Below, piece by piece: positions 3,476 through 18,229 of a stretch of 64,000 nt of DNA. Origin of the DNA: Methylocaldum sp. 14B (GTDB taxonomy: Bacteria > Pseudomonadota > Gammaproteobacteria > Methylococcales > Methylococcaceae); the NCBI RefSeq assembly GCF_002005105.1, contig NZ_MSCV01000012.1, positions 62,001 through 126,000 of the forward strand, written 5' to 3'. Both the position numbers and the translations under genes were made by a program. The notes under the pieces were generated by a model. It was not told the DNA's origin and made no database searches. It saw only the letters and a list, made by a program, of their open reading frames with translations. Position 1 is the stretch's first letter, and every line of letters begins with the position of its first letter.

Positions 3476-3542
3476 GCCCAACGTTTGAGCCGAGGGGCCA
3501 AGTGCCATGCCGGTGGAGATCGGCTCTGGCGAAGGGTAAGGC
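3476..3542 (-). other. attC site of the 3603-3935 cassette
   Basis: R' GCCCAAC is at 3476; R'' is mutated to GGTAAGGC near 3535. The body closely resembles attC at 14067-14134. Confidence 0.6.
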
Positions 3543-3602
3543 CACGCGTTCGGGCGAAAGCAGCCTTGACGTGAGACGAGCAGTCCACCGCCGCGCGAGC
3601 GC

Positions 3603-3935
3603 CTAGCTTCTCTTGCCCTTGATGCCAATGCAGTTGCCCCAGGGGTCTCGGACTTGGCATATGACGAGACCATTCTCTATGTTCAGCGGCCCGCGGTAGA
3701 GCGTGGCTCCGAGATCCTGGAGTGCGGCCAACGCTGCGTTGAACTCTGGCACTTGCCAGTAGGCGACGGTACCCGCCGGACCAGAGGAGACCTTCTCGTC
3801 GGAGGGCACGAACTCCAACTGAACATCGCCGACACGAACCGCTTGGAGTCCTGAGATGGAGTGAACCTGATCCGCTTCGGGGAACGCCCGCTGATACCAG
3901 GTACGAGCCTCTGACGGTACAGGCACGTGAATCAT
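3603..3935 (-). CDS. VOC-family (glyoxalase/bleomycin resistance fold) protein
   Basis: The 110-residue single VOC domain has MIHVPVPSEARTWYQRAFPEADQV at its start, with the conserved aromatic and A..WY helix. The tail is IENGLVICQVRDPWGNCIGIKG, with the typical DPWGN turn next to the last strand. VOC proteins use a divalent metal or bind drugs; the substrate is not deducible. It is an integron cassette between attC sites 3476 and 3972. An alternative overlapping frame (3460-3999) is a shadow. Confidence 0.82.
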   Translation of the reverse strand: MIHVPVPSEARTWYQRAFPEADQVHSISGLQAVRVGDVQLEFVPSDEKVSSGPAGTVAYWQVPEFNAALAALQDLGATLYRGPLNIENGLVICQVRDPWGNCIGIKGKRS

Positions 3936-3971
3936 GAGTGCGACGAGTCAGTGCATAGTCCTGCTTGCGTG

Positions 3972-4052
3972 GCCTAATGCTGTGCATCACCGGCAGCAAA
4001 AGGCAGAGCGATGTGGCGCCTTTTGCTGTCCGAGTGCATGCGATTGTTAGGC
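3972..4052 (-). other. attC site of the class D beta-lactamase cassette
   Basis: R' GCCTAAT (3972), R'' GTTAGGC (4046). Arms AGCAAAAGG and CCTTTTGCT fold over each other. Confidence 0.8.
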
Positions 4053-4065
4053 ATCTGTTTTGTCG

Positions 4066-4848
4066 TCACAGTATCCCCAACGCTTTAAGGCTCGCTTTAC
4101 CCAGTTCTACACGTTTCTTGGCATCGGTTGCTTGCTGAATATCCATATTCAATGCAAACGCATATACACGATCGCCTTTTTGTACCCACCCGATCCACCA
4201 GCCAATACCTCGGTTAGGAGCGTTTTCCCAACCCGTTTTACCATATAGCGCCCAATTTTCTCCCCGCTCCATTAGAACGATTTCGCGAACGCTTTTCTGA
4301 ACCGACCGGGGGAACGGCAATGCCCCCTGAGCCAACTTGGCAAGAAAACGAGTTTGCTCCACTGCACTGATTTTGAGTGGGCCATTCAGCCAAAAGGTAT
4401 CGATGGACGTACCTATTTCTCCATTTCCGAAATCAAGCCGTGAAAGATTCTCGCTCATGCGCGTTAAGCCGATACGTCGGGCCAAACTCTGGTAGATCGG
4501 GACATTGGACAGGGTAATCGCATCGCGCAATCCCATATCCTTCTCCCAGGTTTTGAACGGCTGTGGGTGACCACCGTAAGGCAGGACTTCGTCAACACTC
4601 TCTACCGCGCCAACTGAGAGTCCGATCAGCGAGTGGGGAACCTTGAACGTTGAGGCTGGAACAAAACGTGTTTCAGCGCGAGCTTTGCCGTAGCCAATTA
4701 ATCGTTGCGCGGTGACATCATAGAGAACGAACGTGCCGTTCACGCCGGAGCCTTTAAATATGGCAGCTACTTTGTCGCTTTCTTCCCAACCAACGGCATA
4801 GGCTCGAAATGTAAACAGTACAAATACCACAGCGAGTAGCTGCTTCAT
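4066..4848 (-). CDS. Class D (OXA-type) beta-lactamase
   Basis: Serine beta-lactamase of 260 residues, exported to the periplasm by the signal peptide MKQLLAVVFVLFTFRAYA. All class D signatures are present: S66-T-F-K69 (nucleophile and carbamylated Lys), S114-N-V116, F140-G-N142 (the usual Y-G-N with Phe for Tyr, seen in some OXA relatives), W153-L-N-G156 and K204-T-G206. Length fits the family. It is a gene cassette with its own attC (3972-4052). The ORF could extend to 4926 through a repeated unit, giving MNNQRVTDPRM; the start at 4848 is preferred because the signal peptide begins there. Spectrum cannot be told from sequence alone. Confidence 0.93.
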   Translation of the reverse strand: MKQLLAVVFVLFTFRAYAVGWEESDKVAAIFKGSGVNGTFVLYDVTAQRLIGYGKARAETRFVPASTFKVPHSLIGLSVGAVESVDEVLPYGGHPQPFKTWEKDMGLRDAITLSNVPIYQSLARRIGLTRMSENLSRLDFGNGEIGTSIDTFWLNGPLKISAVEQTRFLAKLAQGALPFPRSVQKSVREIVLMERGENWALYGKTGWENAPNRGIGWWIGWVQKGDRVYAFALNMDIQQATDAKKRVELGKASLKALGIL

Positions 4849-4861
4849 AATTTCCTTCTGC

Positions 4862-4967
4862 CTATCGAGGCTGTGGAAAACCCTTTTTTCGCGCATTCTA
4901 GGGTCTGTAACTCGTTGATTGTTCATGGACTGAATTTTCGAGTTGAGCGTTTTTCTACACCCTCGAC
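4862..4967 (-). repeat. ORF-less core-to-core unit, copy 2
   Basis: It has the same structure as 2051-2157: left core degenerate (CTATC), ends TGTGGAAAACC and GTTTTTCTACA, right core CCTCGAC. It lies just upstream of the beta-lactamase start and supplies an in-frame upstream ATG. Confidence 0.68.
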
Positions 4968-5038
4968 GTTTGAGTTCACCCGCTCGCTACAGCGGGCGAA
5001 GCCCGCTGTAGCGAATCGGGTGCAACGAAGGGTCGGGC
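4961..5038 (-). other. attC site of the GFA cassette at 5060
   Basis: R' CCTCGAC (4961); R'' GTCGGGC (5032), both one base off consensus. The strong inner palindrome is CTACAGCGGGC / GCCCGCTGTAG. Confidence 0.7.
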
Positions 5039-5059
5039 GGCATGCGGGCGCCTTGGTTC

Positions 5060-5485
5060 TCAGTCGAACTCATTGTGCTGAGGGAGTCTGTCGGTGATGG
5101 TGAACCACGGCGCCTTCGAGCCGACGAAGATGTGCGCCGAGGGACGGATGGTAGGTTCATCGCAAAGCGTCCCGAGCGGTACGTGGACGAACTGACCTTC
5201 TCGAACCACGGAATAAAGGAGGGAACCGCACTTCGCGCACCGTGCGTCGTGGGCAAGTTCCTCTCCGAAGATGAGCAGGGATTCGGGCCCCTGGCTGAGG
5301 ATGAGCTTCTCACGCTCGATACCCGCGAACGGCTTGAAGGCAGCCCCAGTAGCGCGGCGGCAGTTCGAGCAATGGCAATTGAGTGCGTAGCAGAAGCTAT
5401 CTTCGACCGTGTACCGGACGGCACCGCATAGGCATTTGCCCGACAACGAGCGAATGCTCGACGATGGATCGCGCGGTGTGTTCAT
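5060..5485 (-). CDS. GFA-family (CENP-V/GFA) zinc-binding protein
   Basis: The 141-residue protein belongs to the glutathione-dependent formaldehyde-activating (GFA/CENP-V) family. Visible zinc ligands are GKCLCGAVRY (CxCGxVRY), NCHCSNCRR (CxCxxCR) and ARCAKCGSLLY (CxxCG). The family name is historical; true formaldehyde activation is doubtful for most members. It is an integron cassette with ATG at 5485, the upstream MGG being encoded by the core site. Two other GFA genes (8862 and 14147) sit in the same array but differ in sequence. Confidence 0.88.
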   Translation of the reverse strand: MNTPRDPSSSIRSLSGKCLCGAVRYTVEDSFCYALNCHCSNCRRATGAAFKPFAGIEREKLILSQGPESLLIFGEELAHDARCAKCGSLLYSVVREGQFVHVPLGTLCDEPTIRPSAHIFVGSKAPWFTITDRLPQHNEFD

Positions 5486-5488
5486 GCC

Positions 5489-5575
5489 GCCCAACGACCA
5501 AGCTGACGCGCGCCGATGACGATGCCTGATAAAGCTGCAAAGCTTAGCGGCGTCGCCTCGAGCGCCTTGTTGGGC
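5489..5575 (-). other. attC site of the 5582 cassette
   Basis: R' GCCCAAC (5489), R'' GTTGGGC (5569). Confidence 0.78.
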
Positions 5576-5581
5576 CCCACC

Positions 5582-5965
5582 TTACGAGCGCTTCTGCGCC
5601 AAATAGTCTGCATACTCATCTTGAATTACGAACTCGTTCACTAAGCGCTCTGTGCAGCAAAAGAACCGACGCTCTAGCTCAGCGGTAAGCTTGGAAAAGG
5701 AGTCGGCGCTGAACGTTTCTACCGGATCCTCAAACTCAAGTTCCGGGTCGAGCGGTCCGAATTCGTAAACGTCAGTAAACTCTGCGCTCCCGATATTCGC
5801 GCTCTCATAGACTGAGACAGTGAAGCCCTCTTTAGAGACACGCGCAGAAAGCCACCGAATGCCTGGCTTCCCGTCTCTGACACAACCGCCGAGGAAGCAC
5901 TCAATTGCTTTCCCTCTACTCAGGGCGGACTCTGCTTCGGACTGGGTGAGGTATCTTCGCGCCAT
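5582..5965 (-). CDS. Hypothetical cassette protein
   Basis: The 127-residue soluble, acidic protein starts MARRYLTQSEAESALSRGKAIECFLGG. No domain is recognised. The frame is open upstream to 5992 but that part is the attC core (SSNVRLK). The middle (FTVSVYESANIGSAEFTDVYEFGPLDPELEFEDPVETF) is very acidic, a feature common among small antitoxin, immunity or inhibitor proteins but not diagnostic. Single cassette. Confidence 0.6.
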   Translation of the reverse strand: MARRYLTQSEAESALSRGKAIECFLGGCVRDGKPGIRWLSARVSKEGFTVSVYESANIGSAEFTDVYEFGPLDPELEFEDPVETFSADSFSKLTAELERRFFCCTERLVNEFVIQDEYADYLAQKRS

Positions 5966-5973
5966 ATTCTTGA

Positions 5974-6051
5974 GCCTAACGTTTGAGCTCACGCGCGCGC
6001 GGAAGCGGGCAAAGCTCGCTGTAGCGCGTCGGTTCGAGCGATCGGTTGGAC
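5974..6051 (-). other. attC site of the SnoaL-like cassette
   Basis: R' GCCTAAC (5974), R'' GTTGGAC (6045). Confidence 0.78.
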
Positions 6052-6052
6052 G

Positions 6053-6457
6053 TCATGTGCTAGAACGCTGAACTGGTGACAAGAGGTTTGCGTCTCTGGC
6101 CAGGAGCCACTCGCCATGCTCACGCCGCAGGACCGTAAGCGTATACCCCACTCGCTCTATCGCCTGGCTCGCCCCTGGCGGTGTGACCGCGACAGAAAGT
6201 TTGGTCCATACGAACGCCATGTCACCAGAAACTTGAACCTCCTGAATCTCCGACGTGCCCTCGAACTTCGGACGAGGGCTGCCGGGCGGGACCTGTGACA
6301 GGGCCGCAAACTCCGCCTTTCGCATAGGCGGCCGGCCAGGAACGAGAAAGACAACATCGTCTGTCATGAGACCAAGCACGGTCTTTATATCGCCTGCCTT
6401 GGTGGCGGACTGCCACGTTTGAACAAGCGCGCGGATTTGGTCTTCATCGCTCAACAT
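6053..6457 (-). CDS. SgcJ/EcaC-like SnoaL-fold protein
   Basis: The 134-residue cone-shaped NTF2/SnoaL-like domain begins MLSDEDQIRALVQTWQSATKAGDIKTVL, the family's first two helices. It continues GLMTDDVVFLVPGRPPMRKAEF and ends with YTLTVLRREHGEWLLARDANLL, the usual closing strands. SgcJ/EcaC-family proteins are annotated as oxidoreductases but function is uncertain. This is its own cassette (attC 5974-6051 on its 3' side). The upstream AAC(6')-like gene reads into it without a stop (see next entry), so it may be made both alone and as a fusion. Confidence 0.82.
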   Translation of the reverse strand: MLSDEDQIRALVQTWQSATKAGDIKTVLGLMTDDVVFLVPGRPPMRKAEFAALSQVPPGSPRPKFEGTSEIQEVQVSGDMAFVWTKLSVAVTPPGASQAIERVGYTLTVLRREHGEWLLARDANLLSPVQRSST

Positions 6458-6985
6458 ACTGATCTTGTTGATGGGACGCCTAACGTTCGAGCTAACGCGA
6501 CCCTCCACGGCCGGCCGCGCGGGCAAGGCGGCATTCGTGGGTTTGAGCGTCTTGTTGAAGTACACCACTCGCTCCGTCACTGCGAAGCCCAGCTTGCGGT
6601 GGACGGCTTGACTCACCTCGTTCTCGATGGGCGTGTCGGAAGCCAACTCCACGCAACCTCTAGAAGTGGCCCACTGAGCCACCACCTCGACCAAAGCTCT
6701 TGCCACGCCTCGTTTTCGGGCGCCTGGGCTCACGTACAGACCTTCCAGGAATGCGACGGGCGCGGACTTAGTGCCGTTCACGTGGTCGGTCCGGATGGAG
6801 GCTTCGGCGAAACCAACTGCTCCTTGCTCTGCTGACCGGGCGATGAACTGAGCGTAGCGCTCCGGCTCTACCAAGAAGGCGGCCATCTCGTCCAGATGCT
6901 CGTCTGCGCGCCCATCAGGCCACAACTCGAGGCGCAAGCGCAGCCAGTCAGGATCCAGCGCAGTGGCCAACCGCTCGATCTTCAT
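6053..6985 (-). CDS. AAC(6')-like aminoglycoside acetyltransferase reading through attC into SnoaL protein
   Basis: Residues 1-147 are a GNAT acetyltransferase of the AAC(6') type. Visible marks are LWPDG near residue 22, VGFAEASIRTDHVNGT, the acetyl-CoA stretch VAFLEGLYVSPGARKRGVARALV, ELASDTPIENEVS..VHRKLGF, and the end ERVVYFNKTL. Known enzymes of about 145-150 residues stop there. Here no stop occurs: the frame continues through the attC (6478-6560) and joins the SnoaL-like protein in frame, giving 310 residues. The linker is about 30 residues encoded by attC DNA. It could be a real fusion, or translation may restart at 6457. Aminoglycoside substrate is inferred from family likeness only. 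Confidence 0.82.
   Translation of the reverse strand: MKIERLATALDPDWLRLRLELWPDGRADEHLDEMAAFLVEPERYAQFIARSAEQGAVGFAEASIRTDHVNGTKSAPVAFLEGLYVSPGARKRGVARALVEVVAQWATSRGCVELASDTPIENEVSQAVHRKLGFAVTERVVYFNKTLKPTNAALPARPAVEGRVSSNVRRPINKISMLSDEDQIRALVQTWQSATKAGDIKTVLGLMTDDVVFLVPGRPPMRKAEFAALSQVPPGSPRPKFEGTSEIQEVQVSGDMAFVWTKLSVAVTPPGASQAIERVGYTLTVLRREHGEWLLARDANLLSPVQRSST
6478..6560 (-). other. attC site of the AAC(6')-like cassette, translated in frame
   Basis: R' GCCTAAC (6478); R'' degenerate GTTGAAG (6554). It contains no stop codon in the frame of the upstream gene. Confidence 0.72.
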
Positions 6986-6988
6986 ACC

Positions 6989-7066
6989 GCCCAACGCCTG
7001 AACTCGGCCGACGTTTTGCCGCGGCGGAGCGGAGGCAAAACGGTCGGCTGGCGTGCCGTGTTAGGC
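6989..7066 (-). other. attC site of the PhnB-like cassette
   Basis: R' GCCCAAC (6989), R'' GTTAGGC (7060); arms CCGACGTTTTGCC and GGCAAAACGGTCGG. Confidence 0.85.
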
Positions 7067-7459
7067 AGCAAGGTTCAGCTGCCAAGATACGCCGAAGCGA
7101 TCATTTACCCAGCCGAACCGCTGGCTGAACCCGTAGTTGCCCAAAGGCATCAGGACTTGACCGCCCTCAGACAGCGTTTCAAATGCCTGCTCTAGCTCTG
7201 CTGCCGAACCAAATTCCACGAAAGTGGAACTCGAAGGCGTGAACGAAAAATCATGCTTTATCGGGCTATCCGAGCACATGAACTCGCGGCCGCAAATAGT
7301 GAATAAGGCGACCTTTATAGTGCCGGCAGGACCCGGCTCGCCTTGAGTCCAGTATTCGACTCGCACCATGCGGGAATCAGGGAAGGTGGCGAAATACAGG
7401 TCAAGCGCAGCCTGCGCGCTGCCGCCCTGAAACATGAGGAATGGTCTGGCTGTTGGCAT
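7061..7459 (-). CDS. VOC-family PhnB-like protein
   Basis: The 132-residue glyoxalase-fold protein is of the PhnB/3-demethylubiquinone methyltransferase-like subgroup. Marks are FLMFQGGSAQAALDLYFATFPDSRM at the start, the 'mfc.gre.mcsDsp..H.F.ftPs.S.fv.f' stretch in the middle, and GVSWQLNLA at the end. Metal-binding residues of true glyoxalases are not fully kept. No enzymatic role can be assigned. Integron cassette; a core-to-core repeat unit (7485-7592) lies directly upstream. Confidence 0.85.
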   Translation of the reverse strand: MPTARPFLMFQGGSAQAALDLYFATFPDSRMVRVEYWTQGEPGPAGTIKVALFTICGREFMCSDSPIKHDFSFTPSSSTFVEFGSAAELEQAFETLSEGGQVLMPLGNYGFSQRFGWVNDRFGVSWQLNLAA

Positions 7460-7484
7460 TAGATACCTCGACTGGTGTTGGACG

Positions 7485-7592
7485 CTTAACGAAGCTGTAG
7501 AAAGACCCTATTTTCGAGCATTTTAGGGCAAACAACCGATTGATTGTTCGTGGGCTCAATTTTCGAGTTGAGGGTGTTCTACGGCCTCAATG
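7485..7592 (-). repeat. ORF-less core-to-core unit, copy 3
   Basis: Left core GCTTAAC (7485), ends TGTAGAAAGACC and GGTGTTCTAC, right core CCTCAAT (7586). Same unit as at 2051 and 4862. Confidence 0.7.
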
Positions 7593-7644
7593 CTTGAGTT
7601 ATGCCGTGCCGTGAAGCGGCATCGGCTTGAATGAATTGTTAGGC
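7586..7644 (-). other. attC site of VOC cassette copy 1
   Basis: R' CCTCAAT (7586), R'' GTTAGGC (7638); arms match attC 16993-17052 of the duplicate cassette. Confidence 0.75.
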
Positions 7645-8064
7645 GCTGCCATTGCGAAGCCTGATGTGTGATTCCGTTGGCTGAAGAAGATCCCACCTGT
7701 TGCCGTAGAGATCGAGAAACACGGCAACCGTCCCGTACGACTCATGCTTTGGTTCACGGACGAACACGACGCCCTTTGATCGATAGGACTCATAGTCGCG
7801 CCAGAAGTCATCAGTGTAGAGGAAGAGGAACACCCGACCACCTGTTTGGCCGCCAATGCGGCTTTCCTGGTCTGGGCTTGAGGCGCGCGCGAGCAGGAGT
7901 TGGCATTCTGTTGCGCCAGGTGGCGAGACGACAACCCATCGCTTGGATTGCTCAGGTACGAACGTATCTTCAACGAGTCTGAAACCGAGAGTACCGACGA
8001 AGAAGTCGATAGCTTCATCGTAGTCATGAACAACGAGGGAAACGAGGCCGAGCGATTGCTTCAC
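7639..8064 (-). CDS. VOC-family protein, intact copy of duplicated cassette
   Basis: The 141-residue glyoxalase/extradiol-fold protein starts with GTG: MKQSLGLVSLVVHDYDEAIDFFVGTLGFRLVEDT, the standard VOC first strand and helix. It contains SPPGATECQLLLARA and ends HESYGTVAVFLDLYGNRWDLLQP with the metal-site GNRWDL strand. A nearly identical cassette lies at 17047-17472 but carries a nonsense codon, so this is the functional copy. Substrate unknown. Confidence 0.88.
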   Translation of the reverse strand: MKQSLGLVSLVVHDYDEAIDFFVGTLGFRLVEDTFVPEQSKRWVVVSPPGATECQLLLARASSPDQESRIGGQTGGRVFLFLYTDDFWRDYESYRSKGVVFVREPKHESYGTVAVFLDLYGNRWDLLQPTESHIRLRNGSA

Positions 8065-8092
8065 TAAGATCTCCGACTGTGGTGGGTAAAGC

Positions 8093-8179
8093 GCCTAATG
8101 TTCACCATAATCGGCGGTGGAAAGCGGTGCGACGAAGGAGCGCTGCTTTCCACCGTCCGTGTTGATGGCGTTGTTAGCC
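8093..8179 (-). other. attC site of the HxlR/GFA/TfoX/YCII cassette
   Basis: R' GCCTAAT (8093), R'' GTTAGCC (8173); arms GGTGGAAAGC and GCTTTCCACC. Confidence 0.85.
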
Positions 8180-8187
8180 AGTGATGC

Positions 8188-8469
8188 TTACCTCAACTCA
8201 TAGATTCGAATACTTGAAATAAACGGATTGCTTTGGGCTAGTTTTTCGGCGGCATCAAGGCTTTCTGCTTCGATGATGTTGTAACCCGTAATGGACTCCA
8301 TATTCCAGGGTAGATCCCTGGCGCCGTTCTTTGAAATTTCTCGACCACCGGCGAACCCACCCTGCTCGACTTGCTTGTCTGAAATGGACTCGAACCAAGC
8401 CTGCCAAGCCTTCATGATTTCCGGGGTGGGTTTTTCAAATCCATAATGCAGGAACATAAACTTTTTCAT
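8188..8469 (-). CDS. YCII/DGPF-domain protein
   Basis: The 93-residue protein has the YCII (ferredoxin-like dimeric) fold: MKKFMFLHYGFEKPTPEIMKAWQAWFESI at the start, GFAGGREISKNG in the middle and the ending GYNIIEAESLDAAEKLAQSNPF..IRIYEL. It is the last gene of a four-gene cassette; its ATG overlaps the end of the TfoX-like gene by 4 bp, so translation is probably coupled. YCII proteins often sit beside transcription factors, and here an HxlR regulator opens the cassette. Activity unknown. Confidence 0.88.
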   Translation of the reverse strand: MKKFMFLHYGFEKPTPEIMKAWQAWFESISDKQVEQGGFAGGREISKNGARDLPWNMESITGYNIIEAESLDAAEKLAQSNPFISSIRIYELR

Positions 8470-8858
8470 TGGTTTCTCCTGGTAAAGTGTTGAGGCTTGA
8501 TTTTGGATTTTTCTGTCTTTGGGGGTAGAGTGCCAACGTAAGTCAGTGCCATTTGCAGCCAGCTTTCGAGAGCATTGTCCTGGCTTATTCCAGCAGGTTC
8601 AATCGATATGAAACCAGGCATGGGATGACCGCCACCGTCGCAACGCTTTGCCATGGCATTGGCAAGTGCCTGCGGTTCGGCATCTTTGCCGACGCGAACC
8701 ATCAGGCCTTTCTTTGAAGCGCAGCACAGCATGTTGCCGTTTAACAGAAAGGTTACGCCGCCAAACATGCGCTTCTCTGAAACCGGCAAGCCGATGAGCG
8801 AGTTCCGGATTCTGTCTTCAAGACTTGCGGTGCCGGAATGTTGGTGCGTATTCATCAC
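8466..8858 (-). CDS. TfoX N-terminal domain protein
   Basis: 130 residues. The TfoX/Sxy N-terminal domain is seen in VSEKRMFGGVTFLLNGNMLCCASKKGLMVRVG (the R-MFGG-.-.fl.g.m... signature) and GGHPMPGFISIEPAG. It lacks the C-terminal TfoX helix-hairpin region, so it is not a full competence regulator; stand-alone N-domains are common and of unknown function. It lies 3 bp after the GFA gene and overlaps the YCII gene, forming one operon inside one cassette. Confidence 0.87.
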   Translation of the reverse strand: MMNTHQHSGTASLEDRIRNSLIGLPVSEKRMFGGVTFLLNGNMLCCASKKGLMVRVGKDAEPQALANAMAKRCDGGGHPMPGFISIEPAGISQDNALESWLQMALTYVGTLPPKTEKSKIKPQHFTRRNQ

Positions 8859-8861
8859 GGA

Positions 8862-9305
8862 TTACCCCTCTTGAGGCATGGGGGGCATTTCCTGGAAGGC
8901 AGGCAGTGCCGGGTCAAGGTGATCCCATGCCTGCAACCGCTTCGTGTAAATCGCCATTTGCGGCGATATGGCTGCAGGGGAGTCCAGGCTCGCCACCCTG
9001 AATGTCACCATGCCTGGCATGCCGGAACTCTTTCCGAACAAGGGACTGCCACAGGTTGGGCAGAAACTCGTGATAACGCTGTTCCCGCTATCCGCCTTCC
9101 ATTCAAATCCGCGGACGTTACCACTGATCCTCATTGCGGCTTCCGGTACCAGCGCGTGAAAGGCATGTCCTGAACCGCTGAGCTTGCGGCAACTTTCGCA
9201 GTAACAAAACCCCGTCATGGCCGGGGCTGCGGTGACTTCATATCGTACGGCGCCACACAGGCAGCCGCCTTTTATGTCGACTGAGGCATTTATCTCTGTG
9301 TTCAT
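8862..9305 (-). CDS. GFA-family zinc-binding protein
   Basis: 147 residues. GFA signatures are GGCLCGAVRY, CYCESCRKLSG and SFCPTCGSPLFG, giving the two zinc sites. It is the first gene of the GFA-TfoX-YCII operon and is divergent from the HxlR regulator at 9405. The 99-bp gap between them contains two CTTGCA palindromes, which suggests control by that regulator. Substrate unknown; HxlR links to thiol or aldehyde stress are known in other bacteria but this is inference. Confidence 0.9.
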   Translation of the reverse strand: MNTEINASVDIKGGCLCGAVRYEVTAAPAMTGFCYCESCRKLSGSGHAFHALVPEAAMRISGNVRGFEWKADSGNSVITSFCPTCGSPLFGKSSGMPGMVTFRVASLDSPAAISPQMAIYTKRLQAWDHLDPALPAFQEMPPMPQEG

Positions 9306-9331
9306 GTTCTTATCTCCGTATTAGATGGGTG

Positions 9332-9384
9332 CTTGCAAAGTGCAAGCGACAGAATCATGACATGTAGACTTGCATATTGCAAGT
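9332..9384. promoter_or_regulatory. Candidate HxlR operator pair
   Basis: Two palindromes, CTTGCAAAGTGCAAG (9332-9346) and ACTTGCATATTGCAAGT (9368-9384), lie with centres about 37 bp apart between the divergent GFA operon and the HxlR gene. HxlR dimers bind such inverted repeats. Binding is inferred. Confidence 0.65.
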
Positions 9385-9404
9385 GACTCATGTAGCGTAA
9401 CGAT

Positions 9405-9797
9405 ATGAGCAAAGAAGTTGACGTACCCGCATTCCGTTCTCAATGTCCCGTCGCTGCGTCGCTCGATTTGCTGGGTGACAAGTGGAGCCTAGTTATCGTT
9501 CGGGACTTGATGATCGGCAAAAGAAAATACAAGGATTTTCAGGATTCTCCAGAGGGCATTCCGACAAATATTCTCGCAAACCGCCTGCGTAAACTTGAAG
9601 GAGACGGAATCATCGAAAAACGTCCTTATCAAGAGAAGCCCGTAAGGTACGAATACGCTTTGACCCGCAAGGGGGCGGATTTGCTACCAGTACTACAACA
9701 GCTGGCGCTTTGGGGACACAAGCACATTCCAGGAAGTTGGTCTCCACCCGACTGGTTCTTGAACGCAAAGCCAGGCGACCTTCCGCAGGAAAAATAG
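9405..9797 (+). CDS. HxlR-family transcriptional regulator
   Basis: 130 residues with the HxlR winged helix: CPVAASLDLLGDKWSLVIVRDLMIGKRKYKDFQDSPEGIPTNILANRLRKLEGDGIIEKRPYQEKPVRYEYALTRKG, all family hallmarks in order. The Cys at the start (QCPVAAS) is the redox-sensing position in some members. It points against the cassette direction and away from the GFA operon, with paired palindromes in the shared promoter. Likely autoregulated and controlling the three downstream - strand genes. It shares their cassette. Confidence 0.93.
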   Translation: MSKEVDVPAFRSQCPVAASLDLLGDKWSLVIVRDLMIGKRKYKDFQDSPEGIPTNILANRLRKLEGDGIIEKRPYQEKPVRYEYALTRKGADLLPVLQQLALWGHKHIPGSWSPPDWFLNAKPGDLPQEK

Positions 9798-9818
9798 CGT
9801 TGTGATTCGCTAATTTAT

Positions 9819-9899
9819 GGCTAACGTTCCACTTGAGCCGCGCCTTGCCCTGGAGCGTAGCGGAAGGGTAAGGCGTCGGACTCGAAGCGTTTGTTAGCG
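9819..9899 (-). other. attC site of the DUF695/RraB cassette
   Basis: R' GGCTAAC (9819), R'' GTTAGCG (9893). Confidence 0.78.
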
Positions 9900-10637
9900 G
9901 ACAACCTCGGTCTCCCAGCCATCGTACTCTCCGCCATAATCTCGAGCTGCCCGGAACAACGGGATGGTAAGATCGTCTATGTTAGCGATTGATGGGACGC
10001 CGATGCAGGACAGCCTGATACCGTAACTGTTTTGATCGGATTCCGGTTCGATCAATGCTACTGTTGTGTAGCCGAGCGTTGCTGCGTGACTCGAGAACTT
10101 CTGACGCGAGTCTGAATCAGGAAAATATACCCAGTGCTCGATGGGTCTCTCCTTTTCGAGACGGTCGCCGTTTCTTTCGAGGGCCTCGCAGGTTCGACGA
10201 TTCTGAATGCGCTCTCGGTCTTCATCTGACGGATACAGAAACCTGAAGTAGGCGTTCCAATCAGGGTCGCTTCGCGTGCCATACTCGAACTCATAGGAAG
10301 GAAAAGCTTTCATGACATCTGCGACTCGTTCCGCCCAACCCTCGGCGGTGCGAGCATAGAAGTAAAGGTCGCGACACCCGTTAGAGGTGCTTCGGCCAAC
10401 ATAAAGCGCCGTTCCATCTCCCCGCAATGATTCCAGGGCGTCTTCTAGAGACTTGAGGGTTTCGAACTCGACTTGACTCGACAGACCATCATCTCGCGGC
10501 GCCTGCATATGAGTGCGGACATAGGCCATCACCGAATACTCGGCCATGGGTGCTTCTTTGGCTATACCAAGGTCCACGAAGATGGATGCCGGCTTGTTGT
10601 CTACACTGCAGAAATAGAAGTCCCAATCGTCGCTCAT
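9894..10637 (-). CDS. DUF695 and RraB-like two-domain protein
   Basis: 247 residues. The N-terminal part (about 1-130) matches DUF695: DWDFYFCSVDNKPASIFVDLGI, then PRDDGLSSQVEFETL and YVGRSTSNGCRDLYFYA. The C-terminal part (about 140-240) matches the RraB-type domain: NRRTCEALERNGDRLEKERPIEHWVYFPDSDSRQKF and the closing hydrophobic strands. RraB inhibits RNase E in enterobacteria; whether this protein touches RNA decay is unknown. Single-gene cassette; stop codon lies within the attC core. Confidence 0.82.
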   Translation of the reverse strand: MSDDWDFYFCSVDNKPASIFVDLGIAKEAPMAEYSVMAYVRTHMQAPRDDGLSSQVEFETLKSLEDALESLRGDGTALYVGRSTSNGCRDLYFYARTAEGWAERVADVMKAFPSYEFEYGTRSDPDWNAYFRFLYPSDEDRERIQNRRTCEALERNGDRLEKERPIEHWVYFPDSDSRQKFSSHAATLGYTTVALIEPESDQNSYGIRLSCIGVPSIANIDDLTIPLFRAARDYGGEYDGWETEVVR

Positions 10638-10650
10638 GATCTTTCTTATT

Positions 10651-10745
10651 CGCTAAGTTTGAGGTAACCGGCCGCCGGAGCCCGAAGGGCGGAGGGAACC
10701 CGCAAGCGCAGCTTGCGGGCGGTCCGGTTGACCGAGAGGTTAGGC
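10651..10745 (-). other. attC site of the TetR/AhpD-like/zinc-ribbon cassette
   Basis: R' is degenerate (CGCTAAG, 10651); R'' GTTAGGC (10739). Long inner arms CCCGCAAGC and GCTTGCGGG closely match attC 12401-12497. Confidence 0.75.
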
Positions 10746-11036
10746 GGATGCCCGCAGCTTGTGCGGATTTCTATTTGGGCATGTTTGGTCACTGCATCTC
10801 TCCGGGATGGTTTTTGTTCCCATGACCATTAGTGCACCACATTTCTTTCCGTCGCGCATGAACGAGCATCTTTTTCCCGTTGGACGCTCGGGTAGCCAGT
10901 AATCGCACCCCTTGGACGTGCACTTGTAAATAGGACCGAAACGGCCCCGAGCCACTTCCAAAGTACCTTGTTTACAGCTTGGACATGGTACCCCGGTCGG
11001 AGGAAGACCAGCATGTGCGCATTCTTTGTCAGCCAT
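10740..11036 (-). CDS. Zinc-ribbon (topoisomerase C4-type) protein
   Basis: 98 residues with two or three C4 zinc ribbons: CPSCKQGTLEVARGRFGPIYKCTSKGCDYW is the bacterial topoisomerase I C-terminal zinc-finger pattern, followed by CSFMRDGKKCGALMV and ERCSDQTCPNRNP. It probably binds single-stranded nucleic acid or serves as a metal ribbon module. It is the last gene of the three-gene TetR cassette, 77 bp downstream of the carboxymuconolactone decarboxylase-like gene with a hairpin between. Family fit good, function unknown. Confidence 0.82.
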   Translation of the reverse strand: MADKECAHAGLPPTGVPCPSCKQGTLEVARGRFGPIYKCTSKGCDYWLPERPTGKRCSFMRDGKKCGALMVMGTKTIPERCSDQTCPNRNPHKLRASA

Positions 11037-11068
11037 CGTCGGCGCTCCTGAGTTCGGTTAGGGAATAG

Positions 11069-11101
11069 CTGGCGCAAGCGGTATTCCGATTGCGCCAGCA
11101 A
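11069..11101. terminator. Inverted repeat between cassette genes
   Basis: A hairpin with arms CTGGCGCAA and TTGCGCCAG and a 12-nt loop lies between the zinc-ribbon and AhpD-like genes. It lacks a T-run, so it may be an attenuator or RNA stabiliser rather than a terminator. Confidence 0.4.
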
Positions 11102-11113
11102 ATACTTCGGGGA

Positions 11114-11665
11114 TTAGGCCGTGCCTTCCGCCATTGCTATGAACTCGGGATTAGGTACGGCACCGGCCAAGTGATTGCTATAGTTGGTGAGCGTTTTCAG
11201 GGCCACCCCCATCACCACCTCAAATACCTGAGCCTTGGTGTAGCCTGACACGAGGAATTTCTGCACATCTTCTTCTTTGACCCACCCCTTTTCTTCCACG
11301 ACCTTGCGAGTGAAGTCGCGCAGCGCATTGAGCTTCCGGTCGGGCAGTGGCTCAAGGGCAATAACCGCCTTCAAGACAGCGCCATCAACTTCGGCCCTAC
11401 GTCCCAACGCGGTGTGTACCGTCTTGCAATAGCTGCACCCGTTTAGCGTGCTGACGGTAAGCAAAACGACCTGTCTTTCCTGCGGCGTCAGCGAAACCTT
11501 GTCGAAAGCCCTGTCGAGGTTAAGTACGGCATCGAGTACCAGAGGCGATTCGGACACATAGGCCCCCAGATTCGGAATGAAGCCGTAGAGGTCCTTGACT
11601 TTCGCCAGAACTTCGGCGGCACCTGCCGGCGCGGTCATGTCTGAGTGTTGAGTGAAGATGCTCAT
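11114..11665 (-). CDS. Carboxymuconolactone decarboxylase/AhpD-like protein
   Basis: 183 residues. The AhpD-like motif is clear: LTVSTLNGCSYCKTVHTALGRR gives the CxxC...H redox site, in an all-helical CMD fold. The usual following region ALKTLTNYSNHLAGAVPNPEF matches 'peroxidase-related' AhpD-like enzymes. It could reduce peroxides via the CxxC pair. It is divergent from the TetR gene at 11807 and the intergenic DNA has repeated AGACCGGTC half-sites, so TetR likely represses it. Start at 11665 has upstream CCGGAG as ribosome site. Confidence 0.9.
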   Translation of the reverse strand: MSIFTQHSDMTAPAGAAEVLAKVKDLYGFIPNLGAYVSESPLVLDAVLNLDRAFDKVSLTPQERQVVLLTVSTLNGCSYCKTVHTALGRRAEVDGAVLKAVIALEPLPDRKLNALRDFTRKVVEEKGWVKEEDVQKFLVSGYTKAQVFEVVMGVALKTLTNYSNHLAGAVPNPEFIAMAEGTA

Positions 11666-11710
11666 GATTTCTCCGGAAAATGTAGTTGAGTATGCCGGCA
11701 AGCCCTCCGA

Positions 11711-11757
11711 CTAGACCGGTCGGTACAGACTAGCGCAGAGTAGACAGACCGGTCAAC
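11711..11757. promoter_or_regulatory. Candidate TetR operators
   Basis: AGACCGGTC occurs twice (in 11711-11733 and 11745-11755) between the divergent TetR and AhpD-like genes; each sits in a partly palindromic context (CTAGACCGGTC / GACAGACCGGTCAAC). AGACCGGTC-type operators are known for TetR regulators of this subgroup. Confidence 0.7.
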
Positions 11758-11806
11758 TGTTGGTAACGTTGCACCATGACTCAGCAAGAATTAGGGGTAA
11801 CCCAAA

Positions 11807-12406
11807 ATGAAACCCGCAGAATCACTCGATACGCGTGACCGTCTGCTCCAAACAGCCGCCGCCCTGATGTGGGAACGCAGCTTCCAAGCTACCGGGGTTG
11901 ATGAGTTGTGCCAGCGTGCGAACGCAAAGAAAGGCAGCTTCTATCACTTCTTTCCCTCAAAGTCCGATCTTGCGGTTGCGGCCATGGAAAGCTTTTGGGA
12001 ACACGCAAGAGCTGGGATTTTTGAGCCAGTCTTTTCAAGCTCGGAGAGCGGCCTGACTCAGCTTCGTGAGCTGATTGAAAGAATTCATGAATTGCAGGTC
12101 CAAGTCTCCGCTGAAAAGGGAGGAGTTCTAGGGTGCCCCTTCGGCAACTTGGGACAGGAGATGGCGCGCCAGGACGAGAAAATACGAGAGGCGTTGCAGA
12201 AGATTTTCGACTCTCACTGCCAGTTCATCGAAGCCGCGCTTATCCGTGCGGAACAGGCAGGTGAAATTCCGGCGGGTGATAACCGGCAACGAGCGAAGAA
12301 CATATTCGCCTTGCTGGAGGGGGCGCTCCTATTGGCAAAGGTCGCAAACGACCCGCAGATATTTCGCCGCGTGATATCGGCGGTGACAGTTGTTGCAGCC
12401 GCCTAA
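11807..12406 (+). CDS. TetR-family transcriptional regulator
   Basis: 199 residues. N-terminal helix-turn-helix: TRDRLLQTAAALMWERSFQATGVDELCQRANAKKGSFYHFFPSKSDLAVAAM is a canonical TetR DNA-binding domain. The C-terminal ligand domain contains GGVLGCPFGNLGQEMA, seen in regulators that control small oxidoreductases. It lies opposite to the cassette direction and ends exactly in the R' core of the next attC, so it shares a cassette with the AhpD-like and zinc-ribbon genes. Likely represses the divergent operon. Confidence 0.93.
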   Translation: MKPAESLDTRDRLLQTAAALMWERSFQATGVDELCQRANAKKGSFYHFFPSKSDLAVAAMESFWEHARAGIFEPVFSSSESGLTQLRELIERIHELQVQVSAEKGGVLGCPFGNLGQEMARQDEKIREALQKIFDSHCQFIEAALIRAEQAGEIPAGDNRQRAKNIFALLEGALLLAKVANDPQIFRRVISAVTVVAAA

Positions 12407-12497
12407 CGTTTGAGGTGAGGGGCCGCCGGAGCGGCGTAGCCGCGGAGGGAACCTGCAAGCGCAGCTTGCAGGTTCCCTCTCGACCGAATGGTTAGGG
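12401..12497 (-). other. attC site of the 12492 cassette
   Basis: R' GCCTAAC (12401), R'' GTTAGGG (12491); long inner arms GGAACCTGCAAGC / GCTTGCAGGTTCC. Confidence 0.85.
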
Positions 12498-13022
12498 GTG
12501 TGGCTTTTCGTCGGAAAGCCCTTGTTCGCTCTTCTGAAGAATCTGTGGGACGAGGCGTTCTGAGAAACCAGCAATAAATGCCCAGAAGAGAAGCTTTGCT
12601 ACATCCTGCCCTGATGCTGGATAGGTAGAGTTGATGAATCTGATCAGGTCGTCTGCTGTTGGTAGAGGCTCAGAAAATGGGGGAAATGCAAAATGAGGAA
12701 AGAGTGGTCCGTTCAAGATTTCACTCAAAAAGCCTACGTATAGAACGAGAGAGAATATCCCACCGTAGATTGGAATTAGCAGAATCTGAAACCATGACCG
12801 GGACAATAGTTCAAGTTCTTCATCGGCAAGCTTCTTCAGGCGTTGCTGGATGCTTACAAAACCACCAAGTAGTCCGCAACCAAAGCATAACCACGACACC
12901 ATGAGTCGCTGGTGAAAGAGGAATGACAGCCCGAATATCGAAACCACTATCACGAGAGCGCAGGCTGTCATGAGAATAAGCCGCTTAGTAATTGTGTGGA
13001 GCTTTTCAGTTCGGCTGGACAT
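12492..13022 (-). CDS. Hypothetical membrane protein
   Basis: 176 residues with two N-terminal membrane segments (about 15-37 and 40-57), a third near 80-100, and a fourth amphipathic stretch near 145-157. The region QQRLKKLADEELELLSRSWFQILLIPIYGG between segments and the ending FIAGFSERLVPQILQK look conserved in type. I do not know its function; small multi-pass proteins are common in integron cassettes. Single gene. Confidence 0.65.
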   Translation of the reverse strand: MSSRTEKLHTITKRLILMTACALVIVVSIFGLSFLFHQRLMVSWLCFGCGLLGGFVSIQQRLKKLADEELELLSRSWFQILLIPIYGGIFSLVLYVGFLSEILNGPLFPHFAFPPFSEPLPTADDLIRFINSTYPASGQDVAKLLFWAFIAGFSERLVPQILQKSEQGLSDEKPHP

Positions 13023-13043
13023 AAGGCTTCCTTCTGCGTGAGC

Positions 13044-13107
13044 CCCTAACGTTCAAATTGAGGGGCGCGCCGTTTTTGGCGCGTCCCTCTCGAATGCAGG
13101 GTTAGGA
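13044..13107 (-). other. attC site of the DUF4260 cassette
   Basis: R' CCCTAAC (13044), R'' GTTAGGA (13101); arms GGCGCGCC / GGCGCGTCC. Confidence 0.8.
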
Positions 13108-13508
13108 GCGGGCCTGGCAAACCGACCGATAATGCCGAGATGGGTAAAACCAAACCCCACTGAATACTTGAGCCCGTAACCTAGAGCACGGTCAAAGCCA
13201 ATGTGGGCGCACCATATGACGCCCGCACATGAAAGCACGGGGGCAGGGAGGAGGAACCCTACGAGAAGACAGGCAATCGCACCGATATACGAGTGTGCGG
13301 CATTGTAGGTTATGGCACCAACCCGTGCCCCAGCGAGATAACCTAGAAACGAAACGTCCGGGGTGAGAAAGAACAATGCAAACGTACCCCAGCTAAAGCC
13401 CAATTTCGAGTAAGCAAGCACCGCTGCGAGGAGAACACACAGCCCCTCAAGTCGAAGCATTAAACGTACAGCACCTGTAGTTTCACCGGACATTTGATCT
13501 CCTTGCAT
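13053..13508 (-). CDS. DUF4260 family membrane protein
   Basis: 151 residues with about four membrane helices. DUF4260 hallmarks are LEGLCVLLAAVLAYSKLGFSW, FLTPDVSFLGYLAGARVGAITYNAAHSYI, and WCAHIGFDRALGYGLKYS..FTHLGIIGR. Function of the family is unknown. The last 18 or so residues (APNPAFERDAPKTARPSI) are encoded by the attC, so the C-terminus depends on cassette order. Start could also be ATG 13493. Confidence 0.88.
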   Translation of the reverse strand: MQGDQMSGETTGAVRLMLRLEGLCVLLAAVLAYSKLGFSWGTFALFFLTPDVSFLGYLAGARVGAITYNAAHSYIGAIACLLVGFLLPAPVLSCAGVIWCAHIGFDRALGYGLKYSVGFGFTHLGIIGRFARPAPNPAFERDAPKTARPSI

Positions 13509-13511
13509 AGC

Positions 13512-13596
13512 GTCTAACGTTCACCATAACCGGCAGGCTTGGGCGACTCGCCGGACGCGTTGACCAAGACCGTCCGCGTTGATGGCGTTGTTAGGC
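13512..13596 (-). other. attC site of the HEPN-motif cassette
   Basis: R' GTCTAAC (13512), R'' GTTAGGC (13590). Confidence 0.83.
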
Positions 13597-13602
13597 CTTA
13601 GC

Positions 13603-14052
13603 TCAACCATTGCCCGCTAAGGCCCTTGGAATTTTCAAAATCATTGGACGGAGTACCTCTCCTTGGAAATCGGAAAAGTAGTTTGCCAACGCATAGAGCT
13701 CATCGGACGCGATTTCTTGATCGGGAATATTTGGCCTACCAGACTTCAAGGTGTCTGGCCTATCAAAGTTGCCGTAAATGCGCCCGTGAACAATTTTGTT
13801 GCGGTCCTCGAAGGCATTTTTTGCGTTGTCTAGAACCGCCATTAGGTCATCACGGCCCTCGAAATCGAGTTTGGCAGCGACCGACTTCGCCTTCTTAATT
13901 TTCCGACTTACCGGCCACCGCTGTTCTTCCTCAGTGAATTCCTCCACTGCGTTCAGCATGAACAGCAAACTATCGATTTGCTCCTCCAAGTATGCGGAGT
14001 ATAGCGCTACGAAGCCGAGCCCCCCAACAATGTCACCGTCGTCGTTTAGCAC
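13603..14052 (-). CDS. Hypothetical all-helical protein with HEPN-type RN-x3-H motif
   Basis: 149 residues, predicted mostly helical: ALYSAYLEEQIDSLLFMLNAVEEF, then a long basic helix, then NAKNAFEDRNKIVHGRIYGNF. R84-N85-x3-H89 fits the HEPN ribonuclease motif (R, polar residue, then His 4-6 positions later) at the start of a helix. HEPN proteins serve as toxins and abortive-infection effectors. No antitoxin partner is visible inside the cassette, so it could equally be an inactive relative. The motif is seen; the RNase role is inference. Confidence 0.62.
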   Translation of the reverse strand: MLNDDGDIVGGLGFVALYSAYLEEQIDSLLFMLNAVEEFTEEEQRWPVSRKIKKAKSVAAKLDFEGRDDLMAVLDNAKNAFEDRNKIVHGRIYGNFDRPDTLKSGRPNIPDQEIASDELYALANYFSDFQGEVLRPMILKIPRALAGNG

Positions 14053-14066
14053 GGTAGATTCCTAAG

Positions 14067-14134
14067 GCCTAACGTTTGAGCTGAGGGGCCAAGTGCCATG
14101 CCGGTGGAGGTCCCGCTCCAGCGAAGGGTTAGGC
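14067..14134 (-). other. attC site of the GFA cassette at 14147
   Basis: R' GCCTAAC (14067), R'' GTTAGGC (14128). Body very similar to attC 3476-3542. Confidence 0.85.
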
Positions 14135-14146
14135 GTCGCTGGCTTC

Positions 14147-14536
14147 TTACGCTATGTGGGTGACTGCGCCGGGTATTTGCACCCAGGAATGCATGCGCTC
14201 CTCGTACACGGATACGCTGGGCGCCGGGAAAGATGGGTCGGCAAATGCGCCGACGGGGATTGCGACAAAGCCCTCTGGAAGCTTGTAGTAGACCGTGGAG
14301 CCGCAGTGTGGGCAGAAGTTGAAGGTGATTCGTGTTCCTTCGTCTCCGACGCGAACGAACTCCTTGGATGTGCCAGAGATGGTGACGGCCTCTTGCGCGA
14401 AGCGCGCTTGTGCACCAAAGACACTTCCCGTGCGCTGCTGACAAGCCAGGCAGTGACAGACGGACATGCGGATTGGGTCGGCAGCAACCTTGGCCTGTAA
14501 TTGGCCGCAGCTACAAGAAGCGGTGCGCTGGGTCAT
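14147..14536 (-). CDS. GFA-family zinc-binding protein
   Basis: 129 residues. ASCSCGQLQAKV, SVCHCLACQQRTGSVFG and NFCPHCGSTVYYK supply the CxCG, CxCxxC and CxxCG zinc ligands of the GFA family. It ends PSVSVYEERMHSWVQIPG, also typical. The frame extends upstream to 14698 but the first 54 residues come from attC and the neighbour; the ATG at 14536 starts the family domain. Single cassette. Substrate unknown. Confidence 0.9.
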   Translation of the reverse strand: MTQRTASCSCGQLQAKVAADPIRMSVCHCLACQQRTGSVFGAQARFAQEAVTISGTSKEFVRVGDEGTRITFNFCPHCGSTVYYKLPEGFVAIPVGAFADPSFPAPSVSVYEERMHSWVQIPGAVTHIA

Positions 14537-14562
14537 TGGTGGATGCGGAGTGGGTGTGCGAC

Positions 14563-14646
14563 GCCTAACGCTATGCATAAGGGGCGCGCAGCGAAGCGGA
14601 GCGTCCCAGTGAGCAATAGCGAACGAACTTGATGCACTTGTTAGGC
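14563..14646 (-). other. attC site of the OGFr-domain cassette
   Basis: R' GCCTAAC (14563), R'' GTTAGGC (14640). Confidence 0.85.
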
Positions 14647-15150
14647 ATTTTTCACCGCCTCGGCCCAAAAACGCTGCGCCGCTTCCCCTATGCCACAATC
14701 TTTTTCAGTTTCTGCCAGCTCCACTAAAGCCTCGTGAAACTTAATTGCTTCTGTTTCCAGACCGAGACTGCGAAGGCTTTTCAAAATTCTCGTTATTCGC
14801 AAATTGTTATGCGTATCTTTAACAAACCAATTGGATTTTTTACGCTCCCAATTTTCCGATTTCTTTATTCCACTGCCAGTGTCGACAAGACCATAGAAAG
14901 CCAACATACGATTGAAGCTCGCCTTCAAATGCTGCTGTAATATTTCATCATTTAAGAATTCCTCCTGAATCTCTTTTGTGATGGTTGGCGCACCTGGGGT
15001 AACCCGGCTTTTTTCCTTGTTGGGAAATAACCATTGAATATAGTCGTGGGTTACTTCCAGCCAGTAGTCGTCTTGCTCAAGAATTTCTGCGAGCAGCCGA
15101 CCTCGACTATCTGGATGGCTCCCTATGTAGAACAAGATCAGATGGTTCAT
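14641..15150 (-). CDS. Opioid growth factor receptor (OGFr) N-domain-like protein
   Basis: 169 residues. FYIGSHPDSRGRLLAEILEQDDYWLEVTHDYIQWLFPNKEKSRVTPGAP matches the OGFr conserved region (D..GR.l.eIl..D..LE..HDYIQWLFP....S...p.AP), followed by ITKEIQEEFLNDEILQQHLKASFNRMLAFYGL. The domain is best known in vertebrate OGFr but occurs in bacteria, where its role is unknown. The C-terminal 70 residues form further helices. Single integron cassette. Family call is firm from the HDYIQWLFP signature. Confidence 0.87.
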   Translation of the reverse strand: MNHLILFYIGSHPDSRGRLLAEILEQDDYWLEVTHDYIQWLFPNKEKSRVTPGAPTITKEIQEEFLNDEILQQHLKASFNRMLAFYGLVDTGSGIKKSENWERKKSNWFVKDTHNNLRITRILKSLRSLGLETEAIKFHEALVELAETEKDCGIGEAAQRFWAEAVKNA

Positions 15151-15158
15151 GTTTACAT

Positions 15159-15230
15159 GCCTAACGTAAAGCTAAGGGGCAGGACAAATGCGCAGCATTT
15201 GGCCTGTCCCGCTTGAGCGCCATGTTATAC
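15159..15230 (-). other. attC site of the 15244 cassette
   Basis: R' GCCTAAC (15159), R'' GTTATAC (15224). Confidence 0.8.
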
Positions 15231-15243
15231 GAGGAGTTGGCAT

Positions 15244-15651
15244 TCAATTCTTGTTCAGCCAAAAGAAGGCGAGGATGCCTAGACCCAACAGCCAGCCACC
15301 AGCTTGGCCCCAAAGAACGTATGGGTTGTCCTCGTTGGAGCTGGAATCGCTTGAATTAGGGAAGTTGAAGAACCAATATATGCACCCAACGGGGACCAGA
15401 ACCGAAAACAGGTTCCCGAATATTTGGTTGAGCGTTAGAGCCCCAAGCGGGACATCGCCGAGCGGTTTTGGATCAAGCCAAAAGTAGCCGATGATCCCAA
15501 TCGCTGCGATGAAGATCGCCCTGAAGAGTACGCCCCACCAACGTAGGAGCGCCCAACCAATTGCGTCAATCTTCGACGCCACAGGGCCGGGGCGCCCCTG
15601 ATCTGGGTTAGGGGCGGCGTCCAAGTCGTTCTCAGGCTGATGTTCGGACAT
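15244..15651 (-). CDS. Hypothetical membrane protein
   Basis: 135 residues with three predicted membrane helices (about 41-57, 78-95, 115-131) after a hydrophilic Pro/Asp-rich N-terminus (MSEHQPENDLDAAPNPDQG). The last residues are FFWLNKN. No family recognised. Single-gene cassette. Confidence 0.62.
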   Translation of the reverse strand: MSEHQPENDLDAAPNPDQGRPGPVASKIDAIGWALLRWWGVLFRAIFIAAIGIIGYFWLDPKPLGDVPLGALTLNQIFGNLFSVLVPVGCIYWFFNFPNSSDSSSNEDNPYVLWGQAGGWLLGLGILAFFWLNKN

Positions 15652-15692
15652 TCGCGCTTACTCCTCTAGCTCTGATAGGCACCATTTTCCAC

Positions 15693-15767
15693 GTATAACG
15701 GCATGGCTGAGGGGCCGGGGAAAGCGCGCAGCGCTTTTCCCGGCCCCTCTCTAGCCAGTTGTTAGGC
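15693..15767 (-). other. attC site of the 15775 cassette
   Basis: R' GTATAAC (15693), R'' GTTAGGC (15761); strong arms GGGGCCGGG / CCCGGCCCC. Confidence 0.83.
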
Positions 15768-15774
15768 TCTCCGG

Positions 15775-16083
15775 CTAACCGAAAAGCCATTTTGCGAGCC
15801 CCGCGATTACGAGACCGATAAGTATCCCTGTGACGAGATTCCATGCCCTTATTCGGCTCTCGTAGGTTCTCTGTTCATTCTTAGCCTCGGCCTCTTCGAG
15901 CTCCCGTATTCGGTTGCGCATGGCAAGTCGAAAGCCAGCGCTCAGATCTCTGTCTCCGAGCATCTCATCCGCTTGCCTTAGCTCGGCGAGCTTTATAGAG
16001 GCGATCTCGTCTCTATTGTCGCGCTTAAAGGATCGCTGAAAAGCGGCGATAATCTCCTGCTTTCTTTGGTCAGATATGCGCAT
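15775..16083 (-). CDS. Hypothetical tail-anchored protein
   Basis: 102 residues. Charged helical N-terminus (about 1-75, rich in Arg, Glu and Asp, coiled-coil-like: RNRIRELEEAEAKNEQRTYESRIRAW) followed by one C-terminal membrane helix LVTGILIGLVIAGLAKWLFG. Probably anchored in the inner membrane with the helical part in the cytoplasm. Unknown family. The 16070-16459 cassette gene overlaps its start by 14 bp because that frame runs through attC. Confidence 0.65.
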   Translation of the reverse strand: MRISDQRKQEIIAAFQRSFKRDNRDEIASIKLAELRQADEMLGDRDLSAGFRLAMRNRIRELEEAEAKNEQRTYESRIRAWNLVTGILIGLVIAGLAKWLFG

Positions 16084-16459: not shown

Positions 16460-16487
16460 CCAATGGCACGGCGCGCTCTTTCGTGAC

Positions 16488-16559
16488 GGCTAACGACCAA
16501 TCTAACCCGACGGGGTGGAGCGCAGCGGAACCCCGGTCGGGTTGAGCGCTGTGTTAGGC
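16488..16559 (-). other. attC site of the GNAT cassette
   Basis: R' GGCTAAC (16488), R'' GTTAGGC (16553); arms CCCGACGGGGT / ACCCCGGTCGGG. Confidence 0.83.
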
Positions 16560-16978: not shown

Positions 16979-16992
16979 GCGGTGTTTCCTGC

Positions 16993-17052
16993 GCCCAACG
17001 CTTGAGTTAAGCCGTGCCGTGAAGTGGCATCGGCTTGAATGAATTGTTAGGC
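16993..17052 (-). other. attC site of VOC cassette copy 2
   Basis: R' GCCCAAC (16993), R'' GTTAGGC (17046); near-identical to attC 7586-7644. Confidence 0.83.
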
Positions 17053-17472: not shown

Positions 17473-17500
17473 TAAGATCTCCGACTGTGGTGGGTAAAGC

Positions 17501-17563
17501 GCCTAACGTAAAGTTGAGTGGCGCGCCGCGTTTGGCGCGTCCCTCTCGAACGCCGTGTTGGGC
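17501..17563 (-). other. attC site of the LysE cassette
   Basis: R' GCCTAAC (17501), R'' GTTGGGC (17557). Confidence 0.83.
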
Positions 17564-18211: not shown

Positions 18212-18229
18212 GGTCACTTTCCTTGACAG

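Follow-up and report, generated by a model that had tools for sequence, protein, structure and literature searches.

In an integron cassette array of Methylocaldum sp. 14B, two complete neighbouring cassette genes, one for an AAC(6')-like acetyltransferase and the other for a SnoaL-like protein, form a natural in-frame fusion whose linker is encoded by the attC recombination site between them. The fused open reading frame (ORF) lies in a 64,000-nucleotide stretch of DNA (NCBI RefSeq assembly GCF_002005105.1, contig NZ_MSCV01000012.1, positions 62,001 to 126,000), hereafter the window, to which all coordinates refer. Because an AMO/pMMO family gene (PF02461) is present in the genome, the host is taken to be a methanotroph. 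The fusion and its borders consist of the following features.

6053..6985, minus strand: fused ORF, an open frame of 310 codons from the ATG at 6985 plus stop
6545..6985, minus strand: AAC(6') group E-like acetyltransferase domain, residues 1-147, from family profile matches
6458..6544, minus strand: linker, residues 148-176, predicted disordered; 148-169 attC-coded, 170-176 encoded by the next cassette's 5' leader
6053..6457, minus strand: SnoaL-like / DUF4440 / TIGR02246 domain, residues 177-310, from the inner Met (residue 177) to the stop, from profile matches
6478..6560, minus strand: attC of the AAC cassette, with R'' CTTCAAC at 6560..6554 and R' GTTAGGC at 6484..6478, coding for residues 143-169
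5974..6051, minus strand: attC of the SnoaL cassette, from the attC matrix
6989..7066, minus strand: attC belonging to the preceding cassette, upstream of the AAC one, from the attC matrix

Read on the minus strand from 6985 to 6053, the frame is uninterrupted and contains zero internal stops; an alternative TTG start inside the preceding attC would give an ORF of 313 codons (6994..6053). An earlier, sequence-only reading of this DNA had the acetyltransferase reach its normal length of about 147 residues with no stop, and had the frame cross the whole attC and the 5' end of the next cassette. It gave the correct coordinates but no strand; the gene is on the minus one. Both points were borne out: the match to the NCBIfam profile AAC_6p_group_E (NF043067) ends at residue 147, the frame there is open, and a single 310-codon frame spans the rest. 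Neither of the flaws for which that reading had allowed, an overlooked stop or a frameshift between the domains, is found in the sequence as given.

Both domains are present at full length. Pfam identified Acetyltransf_1 (3.5e-17) and DUF4440 (8.8e-14; 52.3 bits against a cut-off of 25.2) on the fused protein, the AAC half matched positions 7-140 of the 140 in NF043067 with 170.2 bits (cut-off 140), and the SnoaL half matched TIGR02246 (SgcJ/EcaC) with 65.4 bits (cut-off 33.95). Judged by family, the fused protein begins with a complete AAC(6')-type enzyme (residues 1-147), for which aminoglycoside acetylation is a prediction, and ends with a complete DUF4440/SnoaL-like protein (residues 177-310). 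The nearest solved structures are AAC(6')-Iy, -Ih and -Ig for the AAC half and 3rob for the SnoaL half. AlphaFold predicted two folded parts joined by a disordered linker (predicted local distance difference test score, pLDDT, <50 for residues 139-175), and structure comparison matched the folded parts to NTF2-like structures and to AAC(6')-Iy/Ih/Ig. As a reading frame, the proposed 310-residue two-domain protein with an attC-encoded linker thus holds.

The attC between the domains (6560..6478) is full length, its sole departure being an R'' of CTTCAAC instead of the usual GYCTAAC. It encodes the C-terminal end of the AAC domain (five residues, FNKTL, 143-147) and 22 residues of the 29-residue linker, whose final seven are encoded by the next cassette's 5' leader. 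Against a matrix built from 14 other curated sites of the window's own array, the site scored 39.5, compared with leave-one-out scores of 18.9-50.3 for those 14. The left half of the site is weak (10.6), and its R'' and R' boxes pair more poorly than those of any other site in the set, with 3 of 7 Watson-Crick pairs, or 5 of 7 when wobble is included, against 5-7 and 6-7 in the other 14. Pairing counts were used here because minimum-free-energy folding was uninformative, several typical array sites also missing the canonical form and some folded stretches deviating by a few bases from the site limits finally adopted. When both strands of the whole window were scanned with the matrix, no score above 13.5 was found outside the array.

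The sequence-only reading had suggested asking where the same AAC gene stops in other integrons, and its relatives give a clear answer. Among 25 distinct AAC loci, the window included, that were compared at E 1e-12 or better (L098 repeats the window, and L094 and L112 repeat L005), 23 of the 24 others have their stop 0-9 residues beyond the domain, the remaining one (L146) is truncated, and the window alone reads on, for 163 residues. The AAC half shares 53.7% identity, over residues 15-150 of the fused protein, with AacA48 (AAC(6')-Iag), a free cassette of a class 1 integron whose stop precedes R''. No stop-bearing form of the window's own AAC cassette was found among the AAC loci compared. 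On the other side of the linker, a search of genome contigs for SnoaL relatives retained 80 loci of 99 relatives; all 80 match the linker/SnoaL side only, and at none of them does an AAC relative of the same family lie nearby. One genome (G028) has a separate SnoaL cassette between two attC sites, near an intI and with its own Shine-Dalgarno signal, and in another (G030, contig 187) a SnoaL relative directly follows an attC-like site. Relatives of each half therefore stand alone, and a free cassette form of each exists.

The fusion had been attributed to cassette juxtaposition. While the fusion stands, juxtaposition alone is not sufficient, since the stop codon of the AAC gene must have been lost as well. 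We infer a route for this loss, along with the expression of the gene and the activity of either domain. The AAC gene has no stop codon left, and its frame enters the cassette's attC at the AAC of R''; the final codons, together with the stop and the first half of R'', would have been lost, perhaps when the 3' end of the gene was welded to the attC. The attC would then supply a substitute C-terminus, N-K-T-L-K, close to the usual x-K-x-L end. The frame itself continues, open, through the whole attC and the 20-base leader of the next cassette and into the SnoaL-like gene in phase. If the region is transcribed, ribosomes starting at 6985 would make one protein of ~34 kDa with both domains and a flexible linker.

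Open frames are common in this setting: in the window array, 34 of 78 attC frames contain no stop from one end to the other, and 5 of 20 junctions have none in the frame that the next gene uses (one of the 20, at 18205, was taken with the wrong start). Selection is therefore not needed for the frame to stay open and, once the stop was lost, an in-frame join would be an accident of roughly 1 in 12. The fusion appears to be such an accident of cassette order rather than a selected bifunctional enzyme.

A census of cassette genes covered the window and 19 stretches beside intI genes from 17 genomes of the family, drawn from some of the intI matches over the cut-off, and at least one usable cassette gene was present in 9 of the 19. 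In total, 134 attC-like sites bound 87 cassettes with a gene, plus 21 further intervals without a gene meeting the rule; these counts are rough, a gene being taken as an ORF overlapping most of its cassette and the attC matrix having been trained on the window's array. Fifty-seven of the 87 genes stop before R'', 25 stop inside their own attC, 3 run past the attC without joining and 2 join. The second join, in L156, was dismissed by eye (no family scan was made), its upstream part resembling no recognisable gene, which leaves the window fusion as the one case in 87 where two recognisable genes are joined, a first rough rate for such events. The same L156 array, from G019, contains cassette-sized units at about 6229..8218 and 12768..13823 (minus strand) that lack recognisable genes and whose ORFs share repeated coding-like text; these are perhaps gene-less cassettes. 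Within the window array, two cassette ORFs (16978..16504 and 13508..13055, minus strand) traverse most of their own attC and stop inside it, and may have attC-coded protein tails without fusion.

The fused ORF belongs to an array whose integrase gene is interrupted, and two further features describe this setting.

3476..22808, minus strand: cassette array with 26 attC-like sites scoring at least 20, all on one strand, from the attC matrix
About 23333..24520, plus strand: integron integrase gene, interrupted at about 23573..23845

The interruption is a ~273-base repeat that has 87 matches in the genome, this copy included. Full-length intI matches are found in G001 and G003, which are of the same genus, further partial intI-like matches in G000, and an intI match above the family cut-off in 21 of 38 genomes of the same family. 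Because its integrase gene is interrupted, rearrangement of the array from within has probably ceased, and the fusion is probably frozen in cis.

Other cassettes and an intron in the array are worth recording. A cassette at 4926..4066 (minus strand) codes for a class D beta-lactamase (NF012161, 290.3 bits, cut-off 250), the nearest named families of which are OXA-50-like, below their cut-offs. Near-identical ORF translations at 8033..7599 and 17441..17007 (minus strand) point to an apparent cassette duplication. A group II intron at about 19781..21513 (plus strand), comprising Rfam D1-D4 matches (19781..19947 and 20062..20152) and a reverse transcriptase/maturase (20179..21513), lies within the array in the opposite orientation to it; class C group II introns that target attC sites sit opposite to the orientation of the array.

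We consider it probable that the two neighbouring cassettes now act as one gene, read through from 6985, with the SnoaL protein made almost only within the fused product. Upstream of the inner Met, the anti-Shine-Dalgarno energy is -0.7, compared with -7.8, -5.9 and -5.9 for three relatives and a random-site median of -2.4. As the inner Met lacks a Shine-Dalgarno signal, SnoaL most likely depends on read-through and, if expressed at all, would most likely be made only as part of the fusion. Several points weigh against this reading. The AAC start is also weak (-3.8), the cassette lies ~16 kb from the integrase gene and far from the usual cassette promoter, where silence is possible, only one assembly shows the fusion, and the fused product is predicted from sequence. 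In addition, the AAC part of the structural model has modest confidence, which says little because that part was folded without relatives in its alignment.

Some of these points are shared by an explanation that we regard as unlikely, in which the ORF, though real, is silent: the cassette sits far down an array with a dead integrase and is drifting towards decay, and the fusion has no biological meaning. The interrupted intI, the ~16 kb that separate it from the cassette and the weakness of both starts all fit this explanation. Against it, each domain is undamaged and matches its family over its full length, and the 310 codons are free of stops and frameshifts; any decay would therefore still be at an early stage.

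It is also conceivable, if quite improbable, that AAC(6') and SnoaL are functional partners and that the cassette fusion fixed a pair that is also adjacent elsewhere. If so, the fused enzyme would be a single two-step catalyst acting on an amine or aminoglycoside-like substrate. The adjacency in question is in G030, a genome of the same family, where contig 15 (L094:8146-9160) carries an AAC(6') gene (51% identity), 82 bases, and then a SnoaL gene (53%), each with its own stop and neither part of a recognisable integron. No attC above noise was found in the gap between these genes, the best score in the contig being 14.2, after SnoaL, and 13.9 on the other strand. The pair was rejected as a conserved operon: the genes lie side by side in G030 alone, L005, L094 and L112 all being that one place, and no SnoaL relative was found in the flanks, of ~0.5-1.5 kb, of the other AAC loci tested. 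The window SnoaL shares ~68-74% identity with stand-alone relatives, among the matches listed, against 53% with that of G030, which argues against co-inheritance of the pair.

A conserved fusion was likewise rejected, as no second example was found in the collections searched. No place covering at least 80% of the fused protein was found among plasmids (177 matching records) or phages (2 matching records), no relative of it among viral contigs, and no second place covering both domains in searches of 61, 369, 38 and 398 genomes, which are overlapping sets and in the two largest of which (369 and 398) just the best 5-6 candidates per genome were scored. No AAC-SnoaL fusion was found in the open-access literature, which is weak evidence since the searches did not include the term SnoaL; nor was a paper found there with both 'Methylocaldum' and 'chromosomal integron', again weak evidence.

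Independent translation of SnoaL from its own ATG at 6457, which would leave the AAC protein merely long-tailed, is very improbable. The inner Met does lie at or beside the point where most stand-alone relatives have their first Met, as 13 of 15 aligned SnoaL relatives have a Met at or no more than 1 residue from residue 177 (starts were taken as the nearest in-frame ATG, and are uninformative for L017 and L036). However, the signal before it is weaker than at random sites, and in the GCUF1-OXA-28 fusion discussed below the inner start is described as having contributed nothing measurable despite a ribosome-binding site (RBS) (PMC3375312). A sequencing or assembly error, with a true AAC stop or differing frames, is highly improbable: this is one draft assembly of 84 contigs with no second copy, but the domains and attC are otherwise intact, and a false stop loss would need a coincident in-phase attC and leader.

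With read-through from 6985 as the preferred reading, the locus is a clean natural case of an integron building a multidomain protein from two complete, unrelated genes, with the linker encoded by the recombination site. It places an attC-linked fusion outside the clinical class 1 integrons, in the array of a methanotroph, where the join is apparently locked by the interrupted integrase. The AAC(6')-I group E enzymes (AacA48, AAC(6')-Iy, -Ih and -Ig) belong to the same family and have the full domain, and the relatives examined end at the domain. Fused gene cassettes have been described for blaGES-1/aacA4 and ant(3'')-Ii/aac(6')-IId (PMC4670013, PMC8876359) and for aac(3)-Ib/aac(6')-Ib' and aac(6')-30/aac(6')-Ib' (PMC3656343). 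As in the window, two adjacent cassette genes became one unit, some of theirs being bifunctional aminoglycoside enzymes; as far as those accounts describe the junctions, the window fusion differs from them in retaining a full-length attC.

The closest known match is GCUF1-OXA-28 from Pseudomonas aeruginosa S-Pae, for which the published account gives a proven in-frame join through a complete attC (R'', L'', L', R') and a dependence of OXA-28, behind gcuF1, on read-through that was demonstrated by mutation (PMC3375312). Of the claim that the window encodes a new two-domain protein, the domain pair stands without a second example in the collections searched, whereas the kind of fusion is already known from integrons. 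In both cases an upstream cassette gene without a stop reads in frame through a complete attC into the next gene, and in both, on that description, the upstream RBS is weak and the R'' box unusual (PMC3375312). The two differ in that GCUF1-OXA-28 is described from a class 1 integron whose integrase is active and excises the first cassette, while the window array has an interrupted one; and in that the GCUF1-OXA-28 protein is proven and impairs export of OXA-28, while the fusion described here is predicted, with AAC(6') first and SnoaL second (PMC3375312).
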